Below are positions 11,811 through 62,699 of a stretch of DNA of 64,000 nt, in pieces. The notes below the pieces were generated by a model. It searched no databases, was not told the DNA's origin, and worked only from the letters and a program-made list of their open reading frames with translations. Made by a program: the position numbers and the translations under genes. The stretch is from Nitrospinota bacterium (GTDB lineage: Bacteria > Nitrospinota_A > UBA7883 > JACRLM01): positions 1-64,000 of the forward strand of contig JACQXA010000003.1 of assembly GCA_016208975.1 (NCBI GenBank), in the 5' to 3' direction. Each line of letters opens with the position of its first letter. Positions within the stretch are counted from its first letter, which is position 1.

Positions 11811-12115
11811 CTTCCCCGAGGTCGCCTGACCTCGGTTCCCGCTTCCCCGTGGTCGCCGACCACGGTTTCCCCTTCTCGCTTCCCCGTGGTCGCCTCGGGC
11901 TGTTGCCCAAATTGTTTCCCGCAATGTCACCCCGGCCAAGCGAAGCGCGAGCCGGGGCCACGACCTTATATGTATTTGAAAAAAGGCCCTGATCCCGGGT
12001 CTCCGCTTGCGCTACGCCCGGGACGACATCGCTGAAACGGCGCTAAACTATTTGGGCAACAGCCCGGCCTGACCTCGGTTCCCGCTACCCCGAGGTCGCC
12101 GGACCACGGTTCCCC
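11811..12115. repeat. Module A units interrupted by element E
   Basis: The 397-bp gap between the TPR protein and the kinase (11785-12181) holds module A palindromes with both GTGGTC and GAGGTC arms. They occupy 11811-11895 and resume at 12067-12115. The unit at 11883-11895 is split by a 171-bp element E. Bases 12116-12181 are unique and carry AGGAAG about 7 bp before the kinase ATG. Confidence 0.85.
11896..12066 (-). mobile_element. Element E copy 1 (171-bp MITE-like, intact)
   Basis: Both ends carry the 17-bp inverted repeat CGGGCTGTTGCCCAAAT. The element is flanked by a direct repeat GCCT (11892-11895 and 12067-12070). Removing the element and one GCCT restores a continuous module A unit. 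It has no coding capacity. Relative to the copies at 59.1 and 62.6 kb it is inverted. Confidence 0.9.
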
Positions 12116-19305: not shown

Positions 19306-19365
19306 CCGCTTCCCCGCGCCCTGTCTCAAAGCGCTTCCCCGTGGTCGCTGACCACGGTTCCTAAC
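19306..19365 (+). repeat. Module A units upstream of sdhA
   Basis: There is one truncated core (CGCTTCCCCG) and one full unit with GTGGTC/GACCAC arms at about 19336-19362. Together with element D copy 1 they fill most of the 461-bp divergent gap between mgtE and sdhA (19122-19582). Bases 19122-19305 show nothing else recognised. Confidence 0.75.
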
Positions 19366-19389: not shown

Positions 19390-19530
19390 GGTAGTGTCTC
19401 AGTTTGAAAGTACAGGGGAGATTCTTCACTTACGCTCAGAATGACAATATAAAAGCCGTTGATAACATTGTCATCCTGAACGAAGCGCAAGCGAAGTGAA
19501 GGATCTGTCTATTATTTGAGATTCAAACTG
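19390..19530 (+). mobile_element. Element D copy 1 (right end degenerate)
   Basis: The left terminal repeat is GGTAGTGTCTCAGTTTGAA. The internal inverted pair CGCTCAGAATGACAAT / ATTGTCATCCTGAACG and the outer pair CTTCACTT / AAGTGAAG follow. The right end stops after ATTCAAACTG and lacks the terminal CACCACC. It ends about 50 bp before the sdhA start, so any sdhA promoter lies in or upstream of it. Confidence 0.85.
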
Positions 19531-27061: not shown

Positions 27062-27170
27062 GTTTGAAAGTGCAGGGGGGATTCTTCACTTACGCTCAGA
27101 ATGACAATATAAAAGCCGTTGATAACATTGTCATCCTGAGCGAAGCGCAAGCGAAGTGAAGGATCTGTTT
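27062..27170 (+). mobile_element. Element D copy 2 (both ends truncated)
   Basis: It begins within the left terminal repeat at TTTGAAAGTGCAGG and runs to GGATCTGTTTT, where module A sequence replaces the right end. The internal inverted pair around TGACAAT / ATTGTCA is intact. It lies 17 bp after the second P-II-like gene. Confidence 0.85.
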
Positions 27171-27359
27171 TAAAAGCTTCCCCGTGGCCGCCTATTAAAA
27201 GCTTCCCCGTGGCCGCCTATTAAAAGCTTCCCCGTGGTCGCCAGACCACGGTTCCTGTGCGGAGTGGAGAAGACCGGGGTCAGGCGACCCCGGTGAAGCA
27301 TAGAAGGCGACCTATTTCCCATGCTTCCCCGTGGTCGCTGACCACGGATTCTTCAACCA
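27171..27359 (+). repeat. Module A tandem array and A-linker-A' unit
   Basis: Three cores at about 27176, 27201 and 27226 have a strict 25-bp period with the same TATTAAAA linker. The third opens an A-linker-A' composite ending at 27299 (CCGGGGTC/GACCCCGG arms on the inverted unit). A further unit at about 27324-27350 has a GCTGAC loop. Confidence 0.88.
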
Positions 27360-27540
27360 GGTAGTGTCTCAGTTTGAAAGTACAGGGGAGATTCTTCACT
27401 TACGCTCAGAATGACAATATAAACGCCGTTGATAACATCGTCATCCTGAGCGAAGCGCAGGCGAAGTGAAGGATCTGTTTTAAAAGCTTCCCCGTGGCCG
27501 CCTATTAAAAGCTTCCCCGTGGTCGCCCGACCACGGTTCC
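27360..27540 (+). mobile_element. Element D copy 3 with module A tail
   Basis: D copy 3 spans 27360-27480 with an intact left terminal repeat. Its right end is fused to TTAAAAGCTTCCCCG at the same point as copy 2, followed by two A cores to 27540. The shared junction shows that a D-A block was duplicated in tandem here. The 539-bp gap 27046-27584 contains nothing else except a TTGACA at 27551-27556. Confidence 0.85.
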
Positions 27541-34323: not shown

Positions 34324-34490
34324 TGATGTCATCCTGAGCGAAGCGAAGGACGGGGCGAATGTCATCCTGAGCGAAGCGAAGGACGGGGCGAATGTCATCC
34401 TGAGCGAAGCGCTGGACGAGACGGATGTCATCCTGAGCGAAGCGCTGGACGAGACGGATGTCATCCTGAGCGAAGCGAAGGATCTCCCAT
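34324..34490 (+). repeat. Five-copy 33-bp tandem repeat
   Basis: Copies begin (GTCATCCTGAGCG) at 34328, 34361, 34394, 34427 and 34460 with an exact 33-bp period. Copies 1-2 and copies 3-4 form sub-pairs differing in GAAGGACGGGGC versus GCTGGACGAGAC. The unit is the same TGTCATCCTGAGCGAAGCG core found inside element D. Confidence 0.92.
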
Positions 34491-34499
34491 CTTCGATAA

Positions 34500-34650
34500 T
34501 ATAGAAGAGATTCTTCGGCTCTGCCTCAGAATGACAACGGCTCTACCCCTCAATGACAGCGGCCAGGCGCCACAATGACAACATAGAAACCGTTGATTAC
34601 ATTGTCATCCTGAGCGAAGCGAAGGATCTACCCATTAATTGGAATTCATA
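34500..34650 (+). repeat. Diverged element D-like remnant
   Basis: The stretch contains GAGATTCTTCGGCTCTGCCTCAGAATGACAA, then ACATAGAAACCGTTGAT and ATTGTCATCCTGAGCGAAG. This follows the D order but lacks terminal repeats. The remaining gap to rho (34651-34947) is unique leader sequence. Confidence 0.65.
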
Positions 34651-34671
34651 CTGGCGCACTATCGTTTTTTC

Positions 34672-45653: not shown

Positions 45654-47795
45654 TCACGCTTGCTCCCGAAACTGTTTTATGATGCCTTCCACGCTTAGTA
45701 TGAGCGCCATGTTCCTGCCGTCGAGTATTGAGATCCCCTCAAACGCGTTGGGCTCCCTCGTTTTAACGGTAAGCTGTTTATAGACTATCTGGCGCTGGCC
45801 TATCATTTCGTCCACCACCAGGCAAACCGCCTGCCCCTTGGATTCGGCCAGGACGCAGATGGAGTCCCACACGGTAGTTTTCCTGGCCTTAACGCCGAAC
45901 AGCTCAGCCAGCCTTATTACAGGATACAACATCCCCCAGCGGCTAACCACCTCCCCTTTCCCCTCCACGGTGGAAACGTCTTCCTTCGAGGCTTTAAATG
46001 ACTCCCTAACGTTCTCCGCCGGAATAAGGAAAGCGCTGGCGCCAACCCCCAACGTAAGCCCCAGCTTTATCCTGGTGGCGTAGGCCAGGGGTAGCGAGAA
46101 GTCTATCCTTAACCCGCGGCCCGGCGTATTGGCCATTTTCAACGACCCGCCCATTCCAGCCACCGAGGCCATAAGCACATCCATCCCCACACCCCGGCCA
46201 GAGGTTTCCGTGACCTCCTCCGCCGTGGAGAATCCGGGGCGAAGGAGCAGGTTCAGCGACTCCGTCTCCGGCAGTTTCGCCGCCGCGTCAATGGAAAGCA
46301 TTCCCTTCTCCACGGCTTTGCGTTTCACCACCGCCACGTCCACCCCGCGCCCGTCGTCGTATATGGCTATGTAAAGGTTGCTCCCGTCGGAATGCACATC
46401 TATGCGAATAGTCCCTTCGGCTGGTTTTCCGCCGGCTATCCGCGCTTCGGGTGGTTCAAGCCCGTGGTCCGCGCTGTTACGCACGCAATGGATAAGGATG
46501 TTCTCTATCTTGTCCAGCAGGCTCTTGTCCACCTCGGTGTCGCCGCCGGTCATTATCAGCCGCATCTGTTTCCCGGTTTCCTTGGCTATCCCCCGCACGA
46601 TGCTGGGAAGCTTGCTTAAGCCACGCTCCACCGGGGCCTTGCGCACCTCGTACAGGCTCTTCTGCATCTGGCCCGAAAGCTCGCGGAACGCCTGGTTGTT
46701 GCTCTTCATGTCCACCGACAACCCGTCAAACTCGCCACCGTCCAGTTTCCGCTGGATGTTGTTGAACAGCTCGTTGATGGTGATAAGCTCCCCCATCTGG
46801 TCCAAAAACTCGTCCAGAAGGCTCTCCCGCACGCGGACTGTTTTGACTTTGGCCGCCTCCCCGCCGGGCGCCGTTTCCGGCCTGGCCCCCGGGGCGGAAG
46901 GTTTTGATGGGGCCGCCGGTTTTTCCTCCTGGATGTCCGCGGCGTATTTTCCGAGCCCCTCGGAAATCATCCCCGCCAGCATGGAGTCCATCCCTATCTC
47001 GTCCTGGAAGAACATCTCGAAGTTCTCTTTCATTTCCTCCAGCATGGCCACGGCCTCGCCATCGCCGGAGGCGGAGCTTATGGACACCAGGCTTTCAACG
47101 TTCTCCATGAATATCTTGTACCCGTTCTCCACGGGCTTGTCGGCCATGGCGTCCGCTATAAGGCTCTTTAGCGCCATGTACTCCCGGCTGATGTCCTGCC
47201 CGGCCCGGATCCATCTCGTCCCGTTGGTGATGGCGCTTTTCCGCCGGTCTTCCACCAGCTCGGGGGCTATCTTGCCTATGATGTCGAACACCTCTTTAGC
47301 CTGCGAGTCCTCCTCGAACTCCCCTTCGTCCTTCACCTTGTTCATGTAGCGGAGCAGTTCCACCCGGAGGGTTTCGTACCTGCGCTCGGCGCTCCGCTCG
47401 CCTATCTTCTCGTCTATGCTTTCCAGATACTCCTGCTCGTTGGCGGCCAGCTCCGTGTCTGTCCCGTAGGCGCGCAGACGGTTGAAAATGTTCTTCAGGT
47501 GGTCGGCCCCGTCCAGGATGAAATGGACGATCTCCTGGTTCACCTCTATCTGTTTTTCCCTTACGAGGTCCAGAAAGCTCTCAAACTCGTGGCTGAAGCT
47601 TTTGAGATGGGTGAGGTTGAAGAACGAGCTCATCCCCTTCAGGGAATGGACACCGCGGAATATCTCGTGGATAGGTTCAAGGTCTTCGGGCTTGGCCTCC
47701 AGCCTGGCGGAGTTTTGCTCCACCATGGACACCATGTCCTCGGCCTCTTCGAGGAAATCGTGCAACAGCCTGTCTTCAGGCTCGGCGGCGCTCAT
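45654..47795 (-). CDS. cheA: Chemotaxis histidine kinase CheA
   Basis: The 713-aa kinase has an N-terminal HPt domain (phospho-His50 in GVHSLKGMSSFF) and a long middle region (about 110-320) with a Pro-rich linker. The H3 dimerization segment, then the catalytic domain, show LIHCVRNSADHGLEPP (N box), IYDDGRGVD (G1) and TSGRGVGMDVL (G2). The C-terminal CheW-like domain is about residues 575-713. No separate CheW, CheY or CheR gene is in the window. It is the first gene of a two-gene operon with the CheD-receiver fusion. Confidence 0.96.
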   Translation of the reverse strand: MSAAEPEDRLLHDFLEEAEDMVSMVEQNSARLEAKPEDLEPIHEIFRGVHSLKGMSSFFNLTHLKSFSHEFESFLDLVREKQIEVNQEIVHFILDGADHLKNIFNRLRAYGTDTELAANEQEYLESIDEKIGERSAERRYETLRVELLRYMNKVKDEGEFEEDSQAKEVFDIIGKIAPELVEDRRKSAITNGTRWIRAGQDISREYMALKSLIADAMADKPVENGYKIFMENVESLVSISSASGDGEAVAMLEEMKENFEMFFQDEIGMDSMLAGMISEGLGKYAADIQEEKPAAPSKPSAPGARPETAPGGEAAKVKTVRVRESLLDEFLDQMGELITINELFNNIQRKLDGGEFDGLSVDMKSNNQAFRELSGQMQKSLYEVRKAPVERGLSKLPSIVRGIAKETGKQMRLIMTGGDTEVDKSLLDKIENILIHCVRNSADHGLEPPEARIAGGKPAEGTIRIDVHSDGSNLYIAIYDDGRGVDVAVVKRKAVEKGMLSIDAAAKLPETESLNLLLRPGFSTAEEVTETSGRGVGMDVLMASVAGMGGSLKMANTPGRGLRIDFSLPLAYATRIKLGLTLGVGASAFLIPAENVRESFKASKEDVSTVEGKGEVVSRWGMLYPVIRLAELFGVKARKTTVWDSICVLAESKGQAVCLVVDEMIGQRQIVYKQLTVKTREPNAFEGISILDGRNMALILSVEGIIKQFREQA

Positions 47796-48014: not shown

Positions 48015-48040
48015 TTTTTTAATATTTCTAATCATTTGAT

Positions 48041-48191
48041 GGTAGTGTCCCGGTTTGAAAGTACAGGGGAGATTCTTCACTTACGCCCAGAATGACAATA
48101 TAAAAGCCGTTGGTAACATTGTCATCCTGGGCGAAGCGCAAGCGAAGTGAAGTATCTGTCTGTTATTTGAGATTCAAACTGATACACCACC
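48041..48191 (+). mobile_element. Element D copy 4 (151 bp, complete, with 8-bp target duplication)
   Basis: The ends are GGTAGTGTCCCGGTTTGAA and, inverted at the right, GGTGGTGTATCAGTTTGAA. The flanks carry the perfect 8-bp direct repeat CATTTGAT (48033-48040 and 48192-48199). An internal inverted pair CGCCCAGAATGACAAT / ATTGTCATCCTGGGCG shows a compensated stem change relative to other copies. It has no coding capacity. The rest of the cheA-lipoprotein gap (47796-48275) holds only promoter-like AT-rich DNA. Confidence 0.93.
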
Positions 48192-48275
48192 CATTTGATA
48201 TATGGTTTGTTCTGTGCTATGTTTCCAGTTTATTTTGCCCTAAGTAACAACAACAAGCTTCAGGAGAATAAAACC

Positions 48276-58976: not shown

Positions 58977-59302
58977 GGTAGTGTCTCAGTTTGAAAGTGC
59001 AGGGGAGATTCTTCACTTACGCTCAGAATGACAATATAAAAGCCGTTGATAACATTGTCATCCTGAGCGAAGCGCAAGCGAAGTGAAGGATATGTCTGTT
59101 ATTTGACGGGCTGTTGCCCAAATAGTTTAGCGCCGTTTCAGCGGTGTCGTCCCGGGCGTAGCGCAAGCGGAGACCCGGGATCAGGGCCTCTTTTCAAATA
59201 CATATAAGGTCGCGGCCCCGGCTCGCGCTTCGCTTGGCCGGTGTGACATTGCGGGAAACGGTTCGGGCAACAGGCCGTTGAAATTCAAACTGGGACACCA
59301 CC
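58977..59302 (+). mobile_element. Element D copy 5, split by element E
   Basis: D copy 5 runs 58977-59106 and 59282-59302. Its ends are GGTAGTGTCTCAGTTTGAA and, inverted, GGTGGTGTCCCAGTTTGAA. Removing the 171-bp E element and one 4-bp TTGA leaves 151 bp, exactly the length of copy 4. Flanks TAAGATCG (58969-58976) and GAAGATCG (59303-59310) match at 7 of 8 positions, a probable target duplication. Confidence 0.92.
59107..59277 (+). mobile_element. Element E copy 2 (171 bp) inserted in element D
   Basis: It has the same length as copy 1. Ends are CGGGCTGTTGCCC and, inverted, CGGCCTGTTGCCC. A 4-bp direct repeat TTGA flanks it (59103-59106 and 59278-59281). The inserted position within D (between TATTTGA and the D right end) proves E moved after D. 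Confidence 0.92.
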
Positions 59303-62558: not shown

Positions 62559-62699
62559 CGGGCTGTTGCCCAAATAGTTTAGCGCCGTTTCAGCGATGTC
62601 GTCCCGGGCGTAGCGCAAGCGGAGACCCGGGATCAGGGCCTCTTTTCAAATACATATAAGGTCGCGGCCCCGGCTCGCGCTTCGCTTGGCCGGGGTGAC
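62559..62699 (+). mobile_element. Element E copy 3 (right end lost)
   Basis: The left terminal repeat CGGGCTGTTGCCCAAAT and the internal inverted motifs are intact. Similarity stops after GGGGTGAC at 62699, so about 30 bp including the right terminal repeat are missing. It lies between the kinase and mdh (gap 62533-62747), 48 bp after the mdh stop. Confidence 0.88.

Follow-up and report, generated by a model that had tools for sequence, protein, structure and literature searches.

Bacterial MITEs such as RUP, NEMIS/Correia, ERIC and Nezha are described, in the sections of Di Nocera et al. (2013, PMC3733652) that concern them, as non-coding elements of 70-300 bp with inverted ends of 15-30 bp, a target duplication, an intergenic location and strong folding. 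The same sections treat the CGTC/TGTC-tagged REPs, which carry a TGTC tag outside a stem that starts with complementary AT, occur in many phyla, frequently form inverted dimers and, like REPs in general, are mostly situated downstream of genes. These REPs are presented there as having no dedicated transposase, and a broad spectrum of transposases is considered as what might move them. In A. variabilis and H. neapolitanus, REP dimers (GTAG-15 and CGTC-1, respectively) are regularly enclosed by a longer palindrome, no copies of which without REPs are recorded for either organism in that account. Members of the IS1 family and of the IS1-IS1595 clade, for their part, make 8-bp duplications and combine short inverted ends starting with GGT with a DDE transposase that carries ERxNLxxR..FSK.

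Element D, a 151-bp repeat in a Nitrospinota genome, resembles each of these systems. It shares the size, ends, target duplication, location and folding of the MITEs, the tag, stem base and dimeric arrangement of the REPs, the enclosure of a REP dimer by a longer inverted structure, and the end type and duplication length of the IS1 clade. Element D is very probably a non-autonomous MITE on whose ends an IS1-like DDE transposase acted in trans and whose interior is a captured inverted REP pair.

Element D and its family in the host genome

The host genome (G000) comprises 2.97 Mb on four contigs, and the window, the whole stretch of DNA analysed here, is the first 64,000 nucleotides of one of them (C3:1-64000). 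Element D occupies 48041-48191 on its plus strand. A sequence-only reading had described it as a transposon-derived short repeat of 151 bp with imperfect 19-bp inverted ends, a perfect 8-bp duplication and a central inverted pair. Direct reading of the letters bears out this architecture, and many host copies share it. The left terminal inverted repeat (48041-48059, plus strand; GGTAGTGTCCCGGTTTGAA) is an IS1-like end that elsewhere flanks IS1-like transposases, and it pairs imperfectly with the right one (48173-48191, minus strand; TTCAAACTGATACACCACC, reverse complement GGTGGTGTATCAGTTTGAA). Both 8-bp flanks, at 48033-48040 and 48192-48199, read CATTTGAT, and the inner inverted pair is CGCCCAGAATGACAAT / ATTGTCATCCTGGGCG. 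Between the ends lie two REP-like hairpins, ATTGTCATTCTGGGCGTAAGTGAAGAATCT on the minus strand at 48070-48099 and a longer variant, ATTGTCATCCTGGGCGAAGCGCAAGCGAAGTGAAGTATCT, on the plus strand at 48118-48157. Each points its TGTC tag toward the centre.

A first search of the host genome with element D, which itself matched over 100% of the query, returned 40 scored full matches, the other copies being 93-96% identical. A script search covering 94% of the genome, everything up to the last 188 kb of C4, raised the number of complete copies to at least 91; of these, 84 measure exactly 151 bp, too short to encode a transposase. Alignment to the family consensus gives 105 matches that span 140 bp or more, together with 18 shorter ones, and the mean difference between a copy and the consensus is 5.8 of 151 positions (about 3.8%). 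The host genome matches the end motif at 207 places, and the same motif written backwards, used as a control, has no match. The host carries about a hundred short, gene-less mobile copies. With its 19-bp ends, constant 8-bp duplication, high copy number and uniform length, the family has the properties by which MITEs are recognised.

Target duplications of 8 bp are perfect in 40 of the 91 copies and carry one mismatch in a further 23, so that 63 fall within one mismatch; shuffling left against right flanks predicts 0.41 perfect cases. There is no rival mode, since perfect direct repeats of exactly 7 bp occur at three copies and of 9 bp at none. Loss of the duplication did not serve as a mark of age, copies with and without it being equally diverged (p = 0.97).

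No open reading frame contains any of the 90 placed copies, though about 89% of the sequence was called coding by a simple caller (frames of at least 100 codons, longest first). The flanking genes run in the same direction at 53 copies, divergently at 30 and convergently at 7, and the corresponding shares of intergenic regions are 0.58, 0.27 and 0.15. The duplicated targets have a GC content of 33%, against 48% in nearby flanks and 56% in the genome. Such AT-rich intergenic siting is a transposon-like landing pattern, unlike that of the REPs placed downstream of genes in the account of PMC3733652.

These positions also bear on whether the core is functional cargo, namely a bidirectional terminator, an mRNA stabiliser or an outward promoter, with copies retained for their function and not as selfish DNA. 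Element D folds strongly as single-stranded DNA (z = -7.0), and its centre holds a promoter-like pair, ATGACA-17-TATATT (48097-48125, minus strand), which recurs in the family consensus and is aimed at a cheA-like gene at 45654-47795; to judge from this motif, the centre might act as an outward promoter. Against a functional role, no terminator-like site was found in element D, the orientation classes show no enrichment at gene 3' ends, and the divergence among copies looks neutral. We regard retention for function as unlikely and continue with a transposed MITE as the preferred reading.

The sequence-only reading had also proposed that the stem changes in a compensated way between copies. Within the family this is weakly supported: the stem pair is T-A in 47 copies, C-G in 12 and unmatched in 25 (Fisher p = 0.016). 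Support is strong for the core across genera, as set out below.

Several further copies, all on the plus strand, lie in the window. One at 19390-19530 has lost its right end (consensus positions 1-141), one at 27062-27168 is truncated (13-119), and two retain an intact left end, at 27360-27478 (1-119) and at 58977-59106 (1-130), the latter accompanied by an orphan right end at 59284-59302. An older, diverged relative occupies 34327-34653 on the plus strand. It consists of five tandem 33-bp units (34327-34480), each beginning TGTCATCCTGAGCG, and then a decayed element half (34571-34653) that is 76% identical to consensus positions 48-141. The tandem-unit locus, which has a paralogue at C4:1117340-1117560, is possibly an older family that preceded the present ends or stands outside them. 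A separate repeat, TGTCGTCCCGGGCGTAGCGCAAGCGGAGACCCGGGATCAGGGCCT, occurs at 59145-59190, 62597-62640 and 12010-12028, with about a dozen copies in the host genome and a constant tail past its palindrome.

Elsewhere in the genome, a family copy at C1:322657-322850 has its right REP unit tandemly duplicated and is flanked by the duplication AACGCTTG. C3:141171-142545, the sole IS-sized pair of ends that holds a transposase, was considered as a full-length parent and is a MITE copy later interrupted by another element, whose two open reading frames look like an IS3-type transposase pair. C4:1076233-1077254, a second such candidate, is a chance pair of ends over an unrelated gene.

An IS1-like transposon group with the same ends

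A further check suggested by the sequence-only reading was a search of this genome for an insertion sequence family with matching ends and 8-bp duplications. Such a group exists in other bacteria, and its transposase is lacking in the host genome itself. The ends GGTRGTGTCYCRGTTTGAA are those of a group of IS1-like transposons found in roughly ten phyla, with elements of 0.1-4 kb, ends of the type GGTAGTGTCTCAGTTTGAA, 8-bp duplications and a transposase of about 290 aa. The pattern GGTAGTGTCYCAGTTTGAAB matched at least 119 stretches across 85,000 species genomes and, in a second scan, at least 120 loci in viral contigs; both counts are lower bounds and, with a pattern picked to avoid the host copies, are not frequencies. 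The titles of the genome matches listed name Pseudomonadota, Bacteroidota, Acidobacteriota, Nitrospirota, Planctomycetota and Chloroflexota, as well as Desulfobacteraceae, Binatota, Ignavibacteriae/Chlorobiota and FCPU426.

Genome and viral contigs together yielded at least 69 complete elements of 142-4236 bp with inverted ends and at least seven of eight bases matching in the duplication. Among the matches listed, 38 of the 69 contain a transposase match, covering at least 250 residues in 29 cases, and 31 contain none. Several of the transposase-less elements that were inspected hold another open reading frame, by eye methyltransferase-like, reductase-like and others. Five complete elements that combine these ends with 8-bp duplications (L224, L227, L228, L229 and L256) each hold a single non-transposase frame of a type judged by eye, and appear to be mobile gene cassettes without a transposase of their own.

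The combination of an 8-bp duplication with ends starting GGT, seen in these at least 69 complete elements, is a trait of the IS1 family. The transposase matches the Pfam model DDE_Tnp_IS1 at its cut-off and retains the motifs DEIW, T.D and ER.NL..RM...RFT.LTN.FSK. Against the NCBIfam IS1 model it reaches E = 8e-19 and 4e-14 (68 and 53 bits), below the curated cut-off of 100 bits, and the parent is for this reason named IS1-like and not IS1; the IS1595 model NF033547 scores 18.7 bits against a cut-off of 75. In 15 of the 29 long transposase matches among the matches listed, the distance from the stop codon to the element end is exactly 9 bp, and in 10 of those 15 the protein finishes with NSN and the stop, encoded by the element end (TTCAAACTGA). 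The right end thus doubles as the 3' end of the transposase gene.

Closer to the host, the end motif is present in 11 of 24 searched genomes of its phylum, the host included. One of these relatives (G014) carries the transposase between two perfect ends (C45:7679-10559), and in two others (G013 and G016) the transposase stands beside an end. In a fourth (G015), ends are paired at exactly 141-bp spacing at least seven times, around an interior that does not match element D, and these copies form a separate MITE family. In the whole host genome, no IS1-like transposase of the parent type was found, nor did self-BLAST reveal a high-copy insertion sequence. IS256 was rejected as the origin of the ends, as the host genome has no Transposase_mut gene. 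Because no such transposase is left in the host, the enzyme is assigned only through the shared ends: an IS1-like transposase probably moved the element D family and would later have disappeared from this lineage.

The REP-like core and the probable capture of palindromes

The DNA mini-hairpin GCGAAGC is very stable, and stems of this type gain stability from tandem GA steps. The core of element D has the structure TGTC - ATTCT - GA - GC(GAA)GC - GA - AGAAT, that is, a stem of 5 + 2 pairs split by GA/GA, a 3-base loop and the tail CT. Of 385 genomes, 49 carry the 28-mer TTGTCATTCTGAGCGAAGCGAAGAATCT with up to two mismatches, and they represent 46 of 330 genera; the control has no hits. This agrees with the earlier suggestion of a core shared by many unrelated bacteria. 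Each arm of element D on its own matches this TGTCATTCTGAGCG core family.

The compensated stem change has its strong form here. Among the 54 distinct variants listed, which carry at most two mismatches, eight have two stem changes, and in seven of these the two compensate within one predicted pair. The compensating changes touch six of the seven pairs; at a chance of 0.034 per double change, p is about 4e-10 if variants are independent. The TGTC tag and the AT at the stem base recur in both arms and across genera, as in CGTC-tagged REPs. The stem of 8-9 bp, loop of 4-5 bases and CCA tail of those REPs are absent, so the core is called REP-like and is not assigned to CGTC-1 to CGTC-4.

Such architecture invites the reading of element D as a REP or BIME that owes its movement to a REP-associated tyrosine (HUH) transposase, with incidental outer repeats. 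The TGTC tag, the stem starting with AT and the compensating double changes fit it, and the host genome does contain one Y1/RAYT-like gene. That sole gene is flanked by a different repeat, of CCGGGGTCGCCTGACCCCGG type, so mobilisation by it was set aside, and what is copied is always the whole 151-bp segment, both ends included. HUH enzymes are not known to make 8-bp target duplications, and the frequency of these duplications within the family largely refutes this reading, to which we give almost no credence. The RAYT-like gene lies at C4:347083-350286 amid many copies of the palindrome GCTTCACCGGGGTCGCCTGACCCCGG / CCGTGGTCGCCTGACCACGG, which recurs in the window around 27200-27350 and 19340-19360.

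The core and the ends occur apart from each other. A joined pattern of end plus core was found in the host only, 1 of 385 genomes, and none of the 93 core sites in the closest relative (G001) has element D ends. The 83 distinct core sites found in viral contigs divide into 27 that have an inverted half-core within 150 bp and 56 single units without an inverted partner; in the same contigs, 14% of random points have a half-core nearby. Since core and ends are found apart and fused only in the host, they have separate origins, and the core, judged by its sequence distribution, is an independent unit. The sequence-only reading had asked whether core repeats of other genomes share the termini of element D; in the other genomes sampled they do not, the case in which it expected the mobile interpretation to hold only locally. 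Mobile carriage of the core, as first proposed, stands within the host genome, where ends and duplications document it, and falls as a general explanation: with ends lacking the core and cores lacking the ends elsewhere, the transposon ends explain its spread inside this genome only.

Cores also appear in other surroundings. In a genome of another phylum (G028), the same core pair lies between outer repeats other than those of element D at three loci (L174, L183 and L190), with GAGACCTTTGCRTAA repeats at L174 and L190, and in G001 it stands beside CTTTGCATAATC repeats (L182). By their layout, these loci are candidates for other MITE families with the same cargo. Four related phage-like contigs (L318, L335, L338 and L339) carry single cores just upstream of genes at comparable positions, so that phage genomes, too, transport the core.

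Conversely, other palindromes are found between the same ends. Each of the seven complete elements of up to 200 bp from other bacteria among the matches listed has a palindromic interior (z -3.4 to -10.9, with most flanks near 0 and the lowest at -1.8); two of them, L264 and L304, are related, which leaves six independent short elements. Among elements of 207-431 bp in the matches listed, one of eight passes z -3. The interior of L269 consists of two different TGTC-tagged REPs, TGTCATTGCCGGGCTTGGCCCGGCAATCCAG and TGTCACCCCCGGGCTTGACCCGGGGGTCCAG, while L264/L304 and L275 hold GTAG-tagged pairs, and L253, L196 and L232 hold other palindrome pairs. Two interior REPs from other bacteria, which may be widespread, are rare in viral contigs, with 2 and 4 stretches.

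These elements also speak to an origin of the interior from the MITE itself through inverted duplication, its likeness to widespread REPs then being convergence. MITEs are frequently long inverted repeats, and L232 shows a near-perfect long inverted duplication. The arms of element D, in contrast, are unequal in length and sequence, each alone matches a core family spread over 46 genera, and L269 contains two different REPs instead of a duplicated one. We judge such an origin very unlikely.

The preferred reading, capture of a REP pair, supposes the following course. An IS1-like transposase once present in the lineage would have recognised 19-bp ends flanking a REP pair, and the segment would have been copied from end to end about a hundred times into AT-rich intergenic sites, leaving 8-bp duplications before the transposase was lost. 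The interior would descend from a captured pair of REP palindromes, inverted with the TGTC tags inward, and not from a deleted transposase gene. The REP pair was probably captured between the ends and not the reverse; the older relatives at 34327-34653 and C4:1117340 bear on this order. Palindromic interiors may favour short elements: palindromes may aid transposition, or REP-rich intergenic DNA may merely lie between the ends. The recurrence of REP-like interiors suggests repeated capture of REP dimers by IS1-like MITEs, a possible route of spread for REPs without a known transposase. A wider proposal gives IS1-like MITEs a general role as carriers of REP dimers: one set of ends spanning several phyla would have captured unrelated REP pairs repeatedly, and such captures, also by other ends, would amplify transposase-less REP families within genomes and carry them between phyla. 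This generalisation we hold as tentative and rather doubtful.

Comparison with described systems

A plasmid collection gave no match to element D. In literature searches by sequence string, the core was absent and the ends appeared in no relevant paper, and a search for work linking REP, MITE and IS1595 found none. Element D thus offers a concrete case in which a TGTC-tagged REP pair has been amplified about a hundred times in one genome with a DDE-type 8-bp signature. The presence of the same ends around other REP dimers in other phyla makes it possible to test where intergenic repeats come from. The analysis also brings out an IS1-like group that is widespread, carries passenger genes and has many derivatives lacking a transposase.

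Compared with the IS1 family, the parent transposase has NCBIfam transpos_IS1 as its best family match, yet it is a single open reading frame of about 290 aa that scores below the curated IS1 cut-off. The parent elements measure 2-4 kb and include passenger genes, and many of the complete ones have passenger DNA but no transposase. What sets element D apart from known bacterial MITEs is an interior made of an inverted pair of REP-type hairpins that exists independently in other bacteria.

The GTAG- and TGTC-tagged interiors found between these ends fit the pair of REP superfamilies that Di Nocera et al. present (PMC3733652). Relative to the CGTC/TGTC-tagged REPs of that account, the core has a stem interrupted by GA/GA, a 3-base loop and no CCA tail, and the tags of element D face inward, tail-to-tail, whereas CGTC dimers are mostly head-to-head. 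Finally, the sections on the palindromes enclosing REP dimers in A. variabilis and H. neapolitanus report no transposon ends, target duplications or transposase, whereas the present analysis documents all three.
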